The notes: a model not told the origin generated them from the sequence alone. Positions 2,737-9,791 are shown, numbered from the stretch's first letter. The stretch is 35,117 nucleotides of DNA from a virus (IMGVR_UViG_3300002460_000103:1-35117), one strand, 5' to 3'. Program-made: numbers and translations.

Positions 2737-3365
2737 AGCGAAAGCTCCTCAAAAACAAGAGTCGCATTTAGAGTTATCGAATCCGCCGGAGCCGTAATCC
2801 GCACCACCAGACGCTGGTTTGGCATCAGGATGGCCCGCTCCGACTGATCGGGGATGTAGAGCCATTCCGATTGGATGTTCCACGACGTAGCCCGAAGGAT
2901 AGCGGCCGTGCCGTCCTGAGCGACCGTCGTATCGTTTTTCCTGACTATCGCGGAGGCACTGCGGCCGGTCGGATCGAAATTCAACGGCGTTATCGCCGAC
3001 CCCCCGGAGCCGACAGTCGTATAGCCGCGCACCACAAGGACGGAGATGATTTCAGCCGCCGCATCGCCAAAGTCGGTATATTGCGACAGCACGACCTCAC
3101 GGATTTTCACCCGTTTGTTGTCCGGGGCCAGGATTGAAAACACATCCTGTGCCGCCGTTACGGCGGTCGCGCTGATCGTGGCGGAGAAGATGTTTCCGGC
3201 CCCGGGATCAACGGACCATGTCGATACAGGGACCATGTTCGGCGCTCCCTGCACCGACATGAGATCGTCAGACGGCGTTCCGGCGGGTGAACCGGACGGG
3301 AGATTCACGATCTCGTTGTCGTCGTCGACTATCGAGACGAACGCCGACGCTCTGCGTTTGGTCAT
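2733..3365 (-). CDS. Virion structural protein, unknown family
   Basis: 210 residues from ATG 3365, preceded by a GGAGATCGGTGAC Shine-Dalgarno region. The N-terminal 40 residues are polar and disordered-looking (SPAGTPSDDL). The rest is beta-rich (IREVVLSQYTDFGD, AIVRKNDTTVA, QRLVVRITAPAD), like small decoration or tail-tip proteins. No catalytic motif is visible. Its 3' end overlaps the coiled-coil gene by 4 bases. The structural call rests on composition and its place between portal and fibre. Confidence 0.6.
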   Translation of the reverse strand: MTKRRASAFVSIVDDDNEIVNLPSGSPAGTPSDDLMSVQGAPNMVPVSTWSVDPGAGNIFSATISATAVTAAQDVFSILAPDNKRVKIREVVLSQYTDFGDAAAEIISVLVVRGYTTVGSGGSAITPLNFDPTGRSASAIVRKNDTTVAQDGTAAILRATSWNIQSEWLYIPDQSERAILMPNQRLVVRITAPADSITLNATLVFEELSL

Positions 3366-3390
3366 GTCACCGATCTCCGATCAGAGCCGT

Positions 3391-4008
3391 TCAGGCATCG
3401 ACCTCAGTCCATAAAAATCCGGCAAAGCCGGTTGTCGCCGTCAACGAGCCGTTGGCAATCCAGCCGCCCGGCGGGATAGTCCAAAAGCCCTTTAGGTCAA
3501 CGATCCCGCCACCACCGGGGCCACCGAAGGCGCCCGCAGTGAAAGCACTACGAAGCGGCATGAGATAGAACGGATTGACGATGGTGCATTCGGTGTCGGC
3601 AAGGGCAACACTGCCCGACGTGCCGTTGATGAAGCAGTTCTGGATACCGGGCGACGGCAGGGAAACGGTGTGCGTCACCACGCCCGCCGAGCTATAGCCA
3701 GCGATCAGGTGCCACGATGCGGCTGCGACTTCAGCGACCGAAAGGGCGTATTGACCGCCGAGTATGATCAGATTCTTGCCAGAGCCGGCCGGGTTGGAAA
3801 CACACAACCCGGTGTAGGTCGTGGTCAGCCCGACCGAAGTTGCCTTGGCGGCAACGTTGGCGGCAACGAACAAATCGCCGCGCCGACTGAGTTCGCCATA
3901 GTCGCCAAGAATGCTGTGCGTGACAAGTCCGCCTTCCTTGGTACCGCGAAGGGAAATCGTCGAATTGTCGGCAGCCGAAATCGGCCCGACCTTGAGGGTG
4001 CCGGTCAT
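3391..4008 (-). CDS. Phage structural protein downstream of the portal
   Basis: 205 residues from ATG 4008, with AAAGGACTTGTA upstream as ribosome binding site. It is a beta-rich, Gly/Ser/Thr-rich protein with TTTYTGLCVSNPAGSGKNLI near residues 62-81, a Gly-rich loop GGPGGGG, and a late IPPGGWIANGS. I have a family-level memory of similar 'LSNPAGSGKNL...IPPGGY' proteins in phage structural clusters near the portal, where they are virion proteins of undefined role. The GKN here is not a convincing P-loop because the surrounding strands and a Walker B are missing. It is a decoration or tail protein rather than a recognised major capsid. Confidence 0.6.
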   Translation of the reverse strand: MTGTLKVGPISAADNSTISLRGTKEGGLVTHSILGDYGELSRRGDLFVAANVAAKATSVGLTTTYTGLCVSNPAGSGKNLIILGGQYALSVAEVAAASWHLIAGYSSAGVVTHTVSLPSPGIQNCFINGTSGSVALADTECTIVNPFYLMPLRSAFTAGAFGGPGGGGIVDLKGFWTIPPGGWIANGSLTATTGFAGFLWTEVDA

Positions 4009-7089: not shown

Positions 7090-7395
7090 TCAAGAGGTTT
7101 TGCCATTTGAATAATGTTCACCTTTGTCAGAGTCTTCTCCTACATGCAGCTCTCCATGTATTTGAAGCATGAGGCGGTTAACCTCCTTGACTGCCGCATC
7201 TCGTTCTTTTCGCGCTTCATTCCTCTCGTGCGTCAACCGATTGACAACCCCCATAGGATTCGGTCCTTCCTTGCCAAGGTCGTCAAGACGAGAAACGCGC
7301 CGCTCTAATACGGCAAACATTTTACCCAATCGGCTCAGGTGATCGACGATGGCCTTGTCGCGCTCTGTGTCCCTACGAAAACCAAACCATGCCAT
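7090..7395 (-). CDS. Small coiled-coil protein
   Basis: 101 residues starting MAWFGFRRDTERDKAIVDHL. AAGGAG lies 7 bases before the ATG at 7395, a strong ribosome binding site that sets this start. The central region (LGKMFAVLERRVSRLDDLG and RNEARKERDAAVKEVNRLML) is two short coiled coils around a flexible GPNPMG linker. It begins 12 bases after the terminase stop and ends directly before the next gene. Function unknown. Confidence 0.6.
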   Translation of the reverse strand: MAWFGFRRDTERDKAIVDHLSRLGKMFAVLERRVSRLDDLGKEGPNPMGVVNRLTHERNEARKERDAAVKEVNRLMLQIHGELHVGEDSDKGEHYSNGKTS

Positions 7396-7406
7396 GTGTG
7401 TTCTCC

Positions 7407-9791
7407 TTAAACCGCCCATGCACTGGTTGCCCGAGGCTTGTCCTTGTCGCCGTAGCGTTGACGGTCTTTCGTTATTGCCAACCGCTCGCCCTCGACAAAG
7501 CCGCTGCACGCAAAGGTCTGGAAGGCGTCGCTATTGCTGACTAGGACGCCGTTTGCCCGATAACAGGCGTTCTTTTCGATGGTTAGGTCGAACACCCACT
7601 GGTTTGCCGTTTCTACGGCGCAACGCTTTATGAGCGCAATTGACGTGGCAGTACTTGGAGCGCGTAGGATAAGGCGTGCAATATAACTGACCGCATTCCT
7701 CACAAGATTTTTCGTGCCACTTGCGGGTTTCCCAAGTGCGCTGGCCATGTTGACTGTGCCAAGCGAGGCCCTCTGGCGATTTATGCCATTCTGCGGCAGC
7801 CGCGCGCGCAACATCGCTGGGCGGCCGCATGGTGCCGTTAGCATGTCGTTCCAACATGTGTTGACGCTGATGCTCGGTTGCGTCGAGGGCTTCAAGATTG
7901 GTCGGGTCATTGTTGAACCGACCGCGTTCTCGATACTCGCGATGATGAACCTCAAAGCCCTCTGAAATATCGCCGTATGCGTGCACATAGACGGCGCGGT
8001 GGAGATTGGACGGTCCTTTAGAGCCCCAGACATTTCGCCGGTAATAATCGCCCGAAAGCTTATAGACGTGACCTTGGAAGCGAATCCGAGCAGGTGGCTC
8101 ATCCACTCCCGACCAGTCAAGAGTTCGTCCGTCATCGTCAGTGAGGACGCCGTAACGAACCCGCGCCGCGTCAGAATTTTGTGTTCCGGCGTGCAAGTGA
8201 GAACACGAATACCCGTGTTGCTCCATATTTCGATTAACTCCGTTGCTTTCTTGACCGGCCCCGCATGCGTAACTGCCGACCAACCCGCAGGAGTCTGCAC
8301 CTGATCCCCAACGACAACGAGTTCAATCGGTATTTTTCCACGGGATGTTTCGACCATCTCACCGGCTATCAGACATCCATGACTCGCATCGTCGTGCCGG
8401 GGACGATCACGCCAGACCGAATGGTCTTCATCCCATTCCTTGCGATAGGCGCGAAGACGTTTCAGCCCTTCGGCACAACCGGCTTCGTCGAACTGGCAGC
8501 GCGGGAATATCCCTCGCGCCGCGTCGATGGCTTCCATTTTCAGGACCGGCCGGGACACAAACTTCGGCCGGAACTTCATCTTCTCCATAACCGTCTTCGT
8601 CCCGCCCTCAAGCCAGAGGCTTTCGCGGTCGCCGTCATGGGGAAGATAGTGATCGCCGAACGTAATCCCGTGTTCCTCTGCCCAGTCGCGCAGCCACTTG
8701 ATGTAGAAGCCGATAAACTCGCCGCTGTTCTCGTAGTAGGAGACGAAACGATGGTAGCCCTTGATGTACTGGTGCAGCCAGATCGTATTGGCGTCGTTGC
8801 GGCCCAAATCCCAAAACGTATTGACGAGATAGCGCGGGTCTAGCGGGAAGCCACCAATACGGCCGTGCTTGTTGGCGACGGCGAGTTGGGTTGAGAAGTA
8901 GGCACCTTCAAGGGCCTGTTCGAAAGCTTCGTCAGGAGTGGCCGGGAATTCCCGTCGCATATCCCCTTCGTTGATGCGCTCCTTGGCGACGTACCAGGCT
9001 TGCTGTCCCCGCGTGAGTTTGATCCCGTCTGCTTCAAGCTTCTCGAAATAGCGCTTGTGCTCCTCGCTGATCACGACAGTCAGAAGATCGCCGGGCAATG
9101 AGTAACTGGGCTCCTGCCACCACGGGTAAAAGTGGAACTTGTAGTCCAGCGGACTAAGCTTCTTGCGTGCCTCGGCTTGCGCCCGCGCGTCCTGACACAT
9201 GCGGTAGAACGCCCCGTCCTGCCCCTCCGCCGTGCTTTCAATGACGACGAACTGACCGGCGTGAACCGCGTTCAACGAGCCGGTGACAATCTCCCGCGCC
9301 TTCTCCGGGTATTGCGCGCAAATCTTGCCGAATTCCGAGACGTGAAAATACTGAAGCGTACCCGACCGCATCGAAGTGGAAACCCGGATCGAACTGTTGT
9401 TTCCGAAGCTCAGGCTATCGGCGCTGTCCTGCGTCGCCGGGCAGGCGTTCTTGATCCCCTCGTCCAATGCGTCGTAGGGCAGCTTGATCTTGTCGCGAAA
9501 GATCGTCTTGGCGTCGTCAACCTTGTGGGCCGTGACGCCGGCCCGCGTGTTAGGCTTGAAGATGCAGGCGTCAAGATAGATCAGGCAGCACAATGTCGTG
9601 ATGCCCAATTGGCGAGCTTTGAGAATTATGTTCAAATCGTGCAGCTCGTCGAGGAACTTGAGCTGCACCCCGTTCGGTCGAAACGGAATGCGGTCGCCGT
9701 GCTGATCGATGACCGTGTAGAGATTCGAAAGCCGCCACCGGGGGTCAAGGAATTGCGACTGGTCGATCTTCACGATTGGACTAGCGGCCAT
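7407..9791 (-). CDS. terL: Terminase large subunit, intein-containing precursor
   Basis: 794-residue precursor; removing the 281-residue intein (residues 473-753) leaves 513 residues, a normal size for a terminase ATPase/nuclease. It drives ATP-dependent DNA packaging and cuts the concatemer. The ATPase half shows a Walker A-type KARQLGITT (58-66), a Walker B-like FHVSEFGK (149-156) and the coupling motif ESTAEG (185-190). The nuclease half shows FWDLG with Asp328, HDGD near 386-389, and the final conserved motif DDASHG/SDAFQTFA, which is split by the intein exactly between SHG and SDAF. Packaging nuclease activity should therefore require splicing. The gene is followed by coupled small genes and the portal. 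Confidence 0.92.
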   Translation of the reverse strand: MAASPIVKIDQSQFLDPRWRLSNLYTVIDQHGDRIPFRPNGVQLKFLDELHDLNIILKARQLGITTLCCLIYLDACIFKPNTRAGVTAHKVDDAKTIFRDKIKLPYDALDEGIKNACPATQDSADSLSFGNNSSIRVSTSMRSGTLQYFHVSEFGKICAQYPEKAREIVTGSLNAVHAGQFVVIESTAEGQDGAFYRMCQDARAQAEARKKLSPLDYKFHFYPWWQEPSYSLPGDLLTVVISEEHKRYFEKLEADGIKLTRGQQAWYVAKERINEGDMRREFPATPDEAFEQALEGAYFSTQLAVANKHGRIGGFPLDPRYLVNTFWDLGRNDANTIWLHQYIKGYHRFVSYYENSGEFIGFYIKWLRDWAEEHGITFGDHYLPHDGDRESLWLEGGTKTVMEKMKFRPKFVSRPVLKMEAIDAARGIFPRCQFDEAGCAEGLKRLRAYRKEWDEDHSVWRDRPRHDDASHGCLIAGEMVETSRGKIPIELVVVGDQVQTPAGWSAVTHAGPVKKATELIEIWSNTGIRVLTCTPEHKILTRRGFVTASSLTMTDELLTGREWMSHLLGFASKVTSISFRAIITGEMSGALKDRPISTAPSMCTHTAIFQRALRFIIASIENAVGSTMTRPILKPSTQPSISVNTCWNDMLTAPCGRPAMLRARLPQNGINRQRASLGTVNMASALGKPASGTKNLVRNAVSYIARLILRAPSTATSIALIKRCAVETANQWVFDLTIEKNACYRANGVLVSNSDAFQTFACSGFVEGERLAITKDRQRYGDKDKPRATSAWAV
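7531..8226 (-). CDS. HNH homing endonuclease nested out of frame in the intein
   Basis: 231 residues from ATG 8226, with GGAG 11 bases upstream; a TTG at 8283 would give 250 residues. The first ~40 residues overlap intein block B and look unconserved. From about residue 50 a canonical family appears: PPARIRFQGHVYKLSGDYYR, LHRAVYVHAYGDISEGFEVH, the HNH core with HH at 94-95 and Asn110, and His119. A helical EWHKSPEGLAWHSQHG region and a zinc ribbon (Cys175, 178, 193, 197) follow. Its frame is displaced one base from the intein frame. Its TAG (7533-7531) overlaps the AAT/AGC splice junction. It would cut intein-less terL alleles; that is inferred. Confidence 0.82.
   Translation of the reverse strand: MEQHGYSCSHLHAGTQNSDAARVRYGVLTDDDGRTLDWSGVDEPPARIRFQGHVYKLSGDYYRRNVWGSKGPSNLHRAVYVHAYGDISEGFEVHHREYRERGRFNNDPTNLEALDATEHQRQHMLERHANGTMRPPSDVARAAAAEWHKSPEGLAWHSQHGQRTWETRKWHEKSCEECGQLYCTPYPTRSKYCHVNCAHKALRRRNGKPVGVRPNHRKERLLSGKRRPSQQ
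7533..8375 (-). mobile_element. Intein in the terminase nuclease motif
   Basis: The 281-residue insert begins with Cys1 (TGT, 8375-8373) and ends with Asn (AAT, 7535-7533), followed by Ser+1 of the extein. Block A is CLIAGEMVETSRGKIPIEL, block B is VLTCTPEHKIL with the TxxH arrangement, and block F/G is VFDLTIEKN...RANGVLVSN. All three are in terminase frame. The penultimate residue is Ser, not the usual His. The middle ~165 residues in this frame resemble no known domain and look like the +1 shadow of the HNH gene read in the other frame. The insertion point sits on a catalytic motif, as typical for inteins. Splicing is inferred from motifs. Confidence 0.88.

Follow-up and report, generated by a model that had tools for sequence, protein, structure and literature searches.

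The window, a 35,117-nucleotide stretch of viral DNA (IMGVR_UViG_3300002460_000103:1-35117), encodes a terminase large subunit (TerL) of 794 amino acids on the minus strand (7407..9791), as identified from the ORF list and its translation. The TerL ORF is read from 9791 to 7407 without a stop codon, leaving the host gene unbroken, and its residues 33-472 match PHROG 2 'terminase large subunit' (E 9e-28). Codons 473-753 comprise an intein of 281 amino acids (7533..8375, minus strand), which extends from Cys1 to Asn281 with Ser as the +1 residue and divides TerL into an N-extein (9791-8376) and a C-extein (7532-7410), both on the same strand. Block A (CLIAGEMVETSRG; 8337..8375) begins at the nucleophile Cys1, and block B (GIRVLTCTPEHKILTRRGF; 8157..8213) contains the TxxH motif as TPEH; both T62 and H65 are conserved, in alignment A2 as well as in A4. 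Blocks F and G with the +1 Ser (VFDLTIEKNACYRANGVLVSN/S; 7530..7595, slash marking the junction) have C-terminal columns conserved in A4; in the intein frame block F reads VFDLTIEKNACYRA and block G NGVLVSN/S, supplying the SN/S end of an intein. All four blocks lie on the minus strand. In addition, a 139-amino-acid ORF (7090-7509, minus strand) shares about 100 nt with the 3' end of terL, read in a different frame.

In the intein frame, Pfam returned Intein_splicing (E 3e-6, under the curated cut-off) and Hint_2 (E 0.004). A profile of 45 relatives matched the gp41-1 intein (E 4e-18), which was also recovered by Foldseek with the predicted intein fold (E 9e-6, probability 1.00), and the solved inteins closest to that of the window include gp41-1 and NrdJ-1. 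AlphaFold predicts the HINT fold confidently at both ends (pLDDT 93-98). When the intein is removed, TerL aligns without gaps across the junction with six intein-free TerL proteins (intein-free relatives are 45-49% identical to the window TerL), the junction reading RHDDASHG/SDAF in the window and RHDWASHGADAF in the intein-free proteins. The empty site is accordingly SHG/xDAF, in the form SHG/ADAF in relatives. The insertion point lies within a conserved motif of the TerL C-terminal nuclease region, and none of the 41 TerL relatives found by sequence contains an intein at this site. Positions 7533-8375 (minus strand) are confirmed as an intein in the TerL frame, for which protein splicing is predicted; blocks A, B and F, which the sequence-only reading had placed uninterrupted in this frame, hold up and are joined by block G and the exact empty site.

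The central part of the intein is double-coded. Residues ~100-240 (7656..8078, minus strand) are open in the intein frame, are predicted to be disordered (pLDDT of the overlap mostly 41-63) and lack amino-acid constraint, and they share their bases with an HNH endonuclease ORF in the -1 frame relative to TerL (7531..8283, minus strand, in its longest form from TTG 8283); the third frame of the insert contains many stops. The HNH ORF ends with a TAG codon (7533-7531, minus strand) spanning the last intein codon and Ser+1. It encodes an HNH core (EVHHREYRERGRFNNDPTNLEALDATEHQRQHM; 7855..7953, minus strand) with conserved H94, H95, N105, N106, N110 and H119, as read from 61- and 53-member alignments, and a CxxC...CxxxC zinc ribbon (CEECGQLYCTPYPTRSKYCHVNC; 7636..7704, minus strand) with invariant C175, C178, C193 and C197, the conserved motif residues and zinc-binding cysteines being those of an HNH homing endonuclease. 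Furthermore, the C-terminus of the HNH protein (KPVGVRPNHRKERLLSGKRRPSQQ followed by the stop; 7531..7605, minus strand) is encoded on the bases of intein blocks F and G, and this dual-coded tail is conserved in the related elements L048 and L184. Most HNH homologues stop ~55 nt before the intein end, which makes the coterminal stop of the window unusual.

Separate database searches of the two frames returned different families, with Intein_splicing and Hint_2 for the intein frame and HNH_3 (E 2.5e-5, 0.6 bit under the Pfam cut-off) and PHROG 15471 'HNH endonuclease' (E 3.6e-20) for the HNH frame. Among solved structures, the intron homing endonuclease I-HmuI is closest to the HNH protein (E 0.005 in both the sequence and the fold comparison), and the AlphaFold2 pLDDT reaches 88-98 over most of residues 40-210 of the form starting at ATG. 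As a single-protein query against viral contigs, the window HNH retrieved no relatives, and a family alignment was needed. Together with the zinc ribbon, the HNH_3 and PHROG 15471 matches bear out the proposal, made from the sequence alone, of a complete HNH gene on the same DNA and strand one base off the TerL frame. The coterminal ends proposed with it stand for the 3' end and fail for the 5' end, as the longest HNH ORF begins 92 nt inside the intein.

The two frames differ in their constraint. Within the overlap, substitutions peak at HNH codon position 3, which is host position 2 (6682/14438/8022 at host positions 1/2/3), while host position 3 has the most substitutions outside the overlap (12433/10038/22769), both sets of counts being pooled over 248 non-independent pairs of related elements. 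For the single pair L072/L084, the corresponding counts are 0/14/4 in the overlap and 13/9/61 in the flanks. Between the window and L048, amino-acid identity in the overlap is 0.55 in the HNH frame and 0.29 in both the host and the third frame, and the HINT ends are conserved (identity 0.48 and 0.64). As the host frame is thus no more similar than the unused third frame in a protein whose HINT ends are conserved, only openness is required of it in the overlap. The AlphaFold predictions, with confident HINT ends, a confident HNH frame and an overlap that is disordered in the intein frame, are consistent with this, and all comparative tests agree with the original suggestion that the linker need only be open and that the HNH frame holds the conserved residues.

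When only the window is considered and its HNH protein sequence is kept constant, the TerL frame should contain 1.8 stops on average (P(open)=0.105), and its openness by itself is therefore weak evidence, as the sequence-only reading had cautioned. Across 78 homologous nested loci that were studied closely, in all of which the intein ends are readable, 439 stops are expected in the host frames given the HNH proteins and none occurs, and chance openness of the TerL frame was rejected. The third frame of the same loci contains 1420 stops compared to 1223 expected.

An out-of-frame HNH nested in an intein was identified by automated criteria in at least 243 loci, which form at least 168 clusters at 95% nucleotide identity, and six further nested loci, including the window, were recognized by reading; the scans share some of the loci, which are also related to one another by descent, and the counts are lower bounds and not frequencies. 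Genomes of cultured phages such as Tetrasphaera phage TJE1 are among them, and at least 15 of the nested cases come from bacterial and archaeal genomes. An HNH-profile scan of IMG/VR yielded at least 80 loci, with about nine in ten HNH ORFs lying wholly within a longer same-strand ORF in another frame and no in-frame HNH among the matches listed. Two further scans used patterns of which the endonuclease was not part. Among the matches listed, the intein C-block scan, which is biased by a confirming query that contains the shifted translation, recovered 77 nested loci, two mini-inteins (one with an HNH remnant) and one fractured gene, and the HINT-N scan, restricted to the close HINT group, recovered 79 nested loci and one mini-intein; neither set contained an in-frame HNH. 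Three machine labels were corrected by reading, L282, L336 and L192 being nested in the usual phase. In-frame homologues of the same HNH, which by the sequence-only reading would speak against the layout, were sought from these three anchors, and none was among the matches listed for the intein family. The sole in-frame HNH relative among the matches listed is distant and resides in a ribonucleotide reductase intein (L180). This Planctomycetota ribonucleotide reductase (L180:1743-6719, ORF of 1659 amino acids) contains an intein with in-frame HNH_3 and NUMOD3 in the conventional layout.

The hosts of the nested element are mostly TerL proteins, with insertion at the nuclease-region motif, and DegT aminotransferases host two of the elements. 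One of these, a DegT-type aminotransferase ORF (L127:2075-5242), contains two inteins, one with an HNH out of frame and the other with an in-frame LAGLIDADG endonuclease. The HNH is in the -1 frame relative to the host at nearly all loci, a bias that can be explained without frameshifting because the usual phase has fewer potential stops (~4 to 5 expected given the HNH sequence, compared to 15 to 20 in the other phase). The rarer other phase, in which the host frame is HNH +2 and the HNH lies in the +1 frame, was observed in L053, L059, L105, L116, L121, L122 and L124-L126. Most members of this minority group also differ in their intein C-block (VYCLVVPSTSTFVLGNGAVSHN type), and a separate origin or a switch of frame is implied. 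Mini-inteins without an HNH were found in L253 (2501-3181, ~155 amino acids), L301 (3001-3483, ~138 amino acids) and L249 (2501-3052, ~124 amino acids); L253 has kept a remnant of the HNH zinc ribbon in another frame, which is read as a stage of decay.

Recent movement of whole elements between diverged terL genes is documented, at the level of sequence identity, by two pairs of relatives of the window element. In L098/L117 the exteins are 77-79% identical and the element 97.5-98.5% over HINT-N, HNH and HINT-C; in L052/L054 the values are 84-87% and 98-100%, and in both pairs identity falls off at the intein ends. No endonuclease other than the out-of-frame HNH was found in these recently moved elements. 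No close relative captures a recent transfer of the window's own element, and the evidence for mobility, which bears indirectly on site-specific cleavage of the empty site, comes from its relatives.

Free-standing HNH relatives in named phages nearly all adjoin an intact, intein-less terL. A free HNH beside an intact terL was observed in L004, L005, L132, L134, L135, L137, L058, L063, L083, L088, L104 and L115, and such homologues are candidates for collaborative homing or packaging cofactors. In only one of the window's 41 TerL relatives does a related HNH occur within ~4 kb. Free and nested forms are mixed in the HNH tree, where well-supported branches force at least three switches.

In contrast to the unbroken TerL ORF of the window, the gene is fractured and the intein split at two related loci. 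The first is that of Vibrio phage 1.238.A (L130), with an interrupted host frame and the order TerL-IntN, HNH and IntC-TerL in the same relative phase. The TerL of this phage (L130:143-3871) has two inteins: the upstream one contains an in-frame LAGLIDADG (Pfam residues 87-339), and the downstream one is the split intein with the free HNH between its halves. The second case (L184, IMG/VR) is a relative of the window intein at the same site, with a TerL-IntN ORF (1160-2839), an endonuclease ORF (2751-3617) and an IntC-TerL ORF (3343-3777) within L184:1160-3777. Its endonuclease has a different N-terminal domain and the same zinc-ribbon tail as the window HNH. Pfam and NCBIfam named no domain in this endonuclease, which matches a PHROG 'homing endonuclease' (E 4e-14) and contains a FYVGKG motif that is GIY-YIG-like by eye. 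This looks like a swap of the nuclease domain that kept the DNA-binding tail. We hypothesize that a stop codon arising in the overlapped host frame would turn a nested gene into a split intein, a direction that we infer and that both L130 and L184 fit.

Endonuclease-bearing inteins are usually described as one polypeptide with an in-frame domain, and split inteins are much-used tools. Canonical inteins with a homing endonuclease (HEN) share with the window a HINT domain and an endonuclease between blocks B and F, but their endonuclease is in frame, belongs to the same polypeptide and leaves with the intein, whereas the window HNH is in the -1 frame. The dCTP deaminase of cyanophage CL131 has such an intein with an in-frame HNH_3 (PMC6293099). 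The ShiLan domain and Pacc40 are out-of-frame HNH inserts in mycobacteriophage methylases without a splicing domain (PMC11855218, 2025). As in the window, their host frame is open through an out-of-frame HNH insert, with the stop at the very insert end, and their spread is sporadic; unlike the window, they have neither intein blocks nor a HINT fold, the host gene is non-essential and the insert is thought to be retained in the protein. In fractured genes, including gp41-1 and NrdJ-1 (Dassa et al. 2009, as cited in PMC10448857), the intein is split and the endonuclease ORF is likewise a separate gene between its halves, but the host gene of the window is unbroken. A group I intron with an HNH ORF of the I-HmuI type is similar in carrying an independent endonuclease ORF inside a self-splicing element. 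As splicing of the window element would occur at the protein level, unlike that of an intron, the host frame must stay open through the HNH gene, and the conserved open host frame and the intein blocks argue against a group I intron.

A brucellaphage TerL with an out-of-frame HNH gene, ascribed to an intein, was noted in passing in PMC4422536. Compared by description only, its layout is the same in words as that of the window; the report covers one phage group and contains no frame analysis, selection test or generalisation. No paper describing the nested intein class in general was found in a search that reached few subscription journals and preprints, and the generality of the layout and its link to split inteins appear new. 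The sequence-only reading had recognized the layout correctly and missed its wide spread, the second relative frame, the single mention found in print (PMC4422536) and the fractured split-intein versions.

Both frames with their differing constraint, the empty sites, the recurrence and the recent lateral movement of relatives, all read from sequence comparisons, lead us to conclude that the window very probably contains a mobile TerL mini-intein with a nested, separately translated HNH homing endonuclease gene. The product of the TerL frame would be a mini-intein, a HINT domain with its two halves joined by a disordered linker; its self-splicing would restore the nuclease motif of TerL. The DNA of the linker would at the same time serve as the HNH gene in the -1 frame, most likely expressed by initiation at a start codon within the terL mRNA. 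As a free protein, the HNH would attack intein-free terL at the insertion site by nicking or cutting, and the whole element would be copied in during repair. The essential TerL would keep the host frame open, and selection on homing would keep the HNH frame intact.

Candidate HNH starts in the window are TTG 8283, ATG 8226 and GTG 8106 (minus strand). A weak Shine-Dalgarno-like GGAG (8238..8241, minus strand) lies 11 nt before ATG 8226 and is tentative; the position of GTG 8106, which has no clear Shine-Dalgarno site, finds support in L048 and in the point where homology begins. Close to the HNH start, 55 of 65 non-redundant loci have an in-frame ATG, compared to 13.3 expected from synonymous resampling of host codons, with a z of 14.7 that is inflated because related sequences are not independent. 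Shine-Dalgarno sites of at least 5 nt occur at 22 of 78 loci (28%) against a background of 9%, and slippery heptamers are not enriched (5 seen, 7.6 expected). Given the excess of ATG codons and Shine-Dalgarno sites and the lack of a slippery-site excess, internal initiation of the HNH is our preferred explanation. Expression by -1 ribosomal frameshifting, as a TerL-N/IntN/HNH fusion, would agree with the -1 frame of the HNH at nearly all loci, but is quite unlikely in view of the slippery-heptamer count, the rarer group with an HNH in the +1 frame, the explanation of the phase bias by fewer potential stops and the surplus of internal ATGs. We consider it very unlikely that the HNH frame is an unexpressed relic, once in frame or free, that is carried passively in the intein linker. 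The absence of a clear ribosome-binding site in the window and the mini-intein with an HNH remnant (L253) would fit such decay, which is contradicted by the substitution pattern at HNH third positions, the invariant catalytic and zinc residues and the internal ATG excess.

A role of the HNH as a packaging cofactor similar to HK97 gp74, working with the terminase and placed in terL for co-regulation and not for homing, is unlikely. HNH proteins beside terminases act in packaging (Kala et al. 2014, as cited in PMC4422536 and PMC10448857), and the position of the free-standing relatives in named phages beside intact terL would suit this role; nevertheless, the similarity to I-HmuI, the sporadic presence among the 41 TerL relatives (intein in none, nearby HNH in one), the two DegT hosts, which are not terminases, and the movement of whole elements between diverged terL genes all argue against it. 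Retention of the insert in TerL as an unspliced, ShiLan-like loop is highly improbable, given the complete splicing blocks and HINT fold, both of which the ShiLan domain lacks (PMC11855218), and the interruption of the conserved motif in the C-terminal nuclease region. Inteins with HNH_3 in frame occur elsewhere (cyanophage CL131 dCTP deaminase, PMC6293099; L180), and an in-frame HNH could have been moved out of frame by two compensating frameshifts or assembly errors. Such an artefact or single accident has a negligible probability and is refuted by the recurrence of the same layout in at least 168 independent sequence clusters, cultured phages included. Two compensating frameshifts in one copy, the alternative that the sequence-only reading had offered, are likewise excluded by the many independent loci, and an ancient origin of the nesting through frameshifts is possible.

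With the mobile mini-intein and its nested HNH gene as the favoured interpretation, we propose with moderate confidence that out-of-frame nesting is the norm for the HNH in the phage TerL intein family and represents a third mobile-intein architecture beside in-frame HEN and split inteins. A stop codon would lead to fracture, as in Vibrio phage 1.238.A and L184, and the nested layout may thus provide a natural route to split inteins and constitute a large class of overlapping genes hidden by annotation. According to the predicted products, a phage gene that is essential, a protein that splices itself and a homing endonuclease translated on its own would share one stretch of DNA, in a layout that recurs across two host gene families and at least 168 sequence clusters. 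By this arrangement the selfish element would gain endonuclease expression that is independent of host splicing. The family provides a large natural set for the study of overlapping genes in which openness is the sole constraint on one frame, and would lead directly to split inteins. Part of the sequence of many annotated phage TerL proteins would accordingly be another gene translated in a shifted frame.
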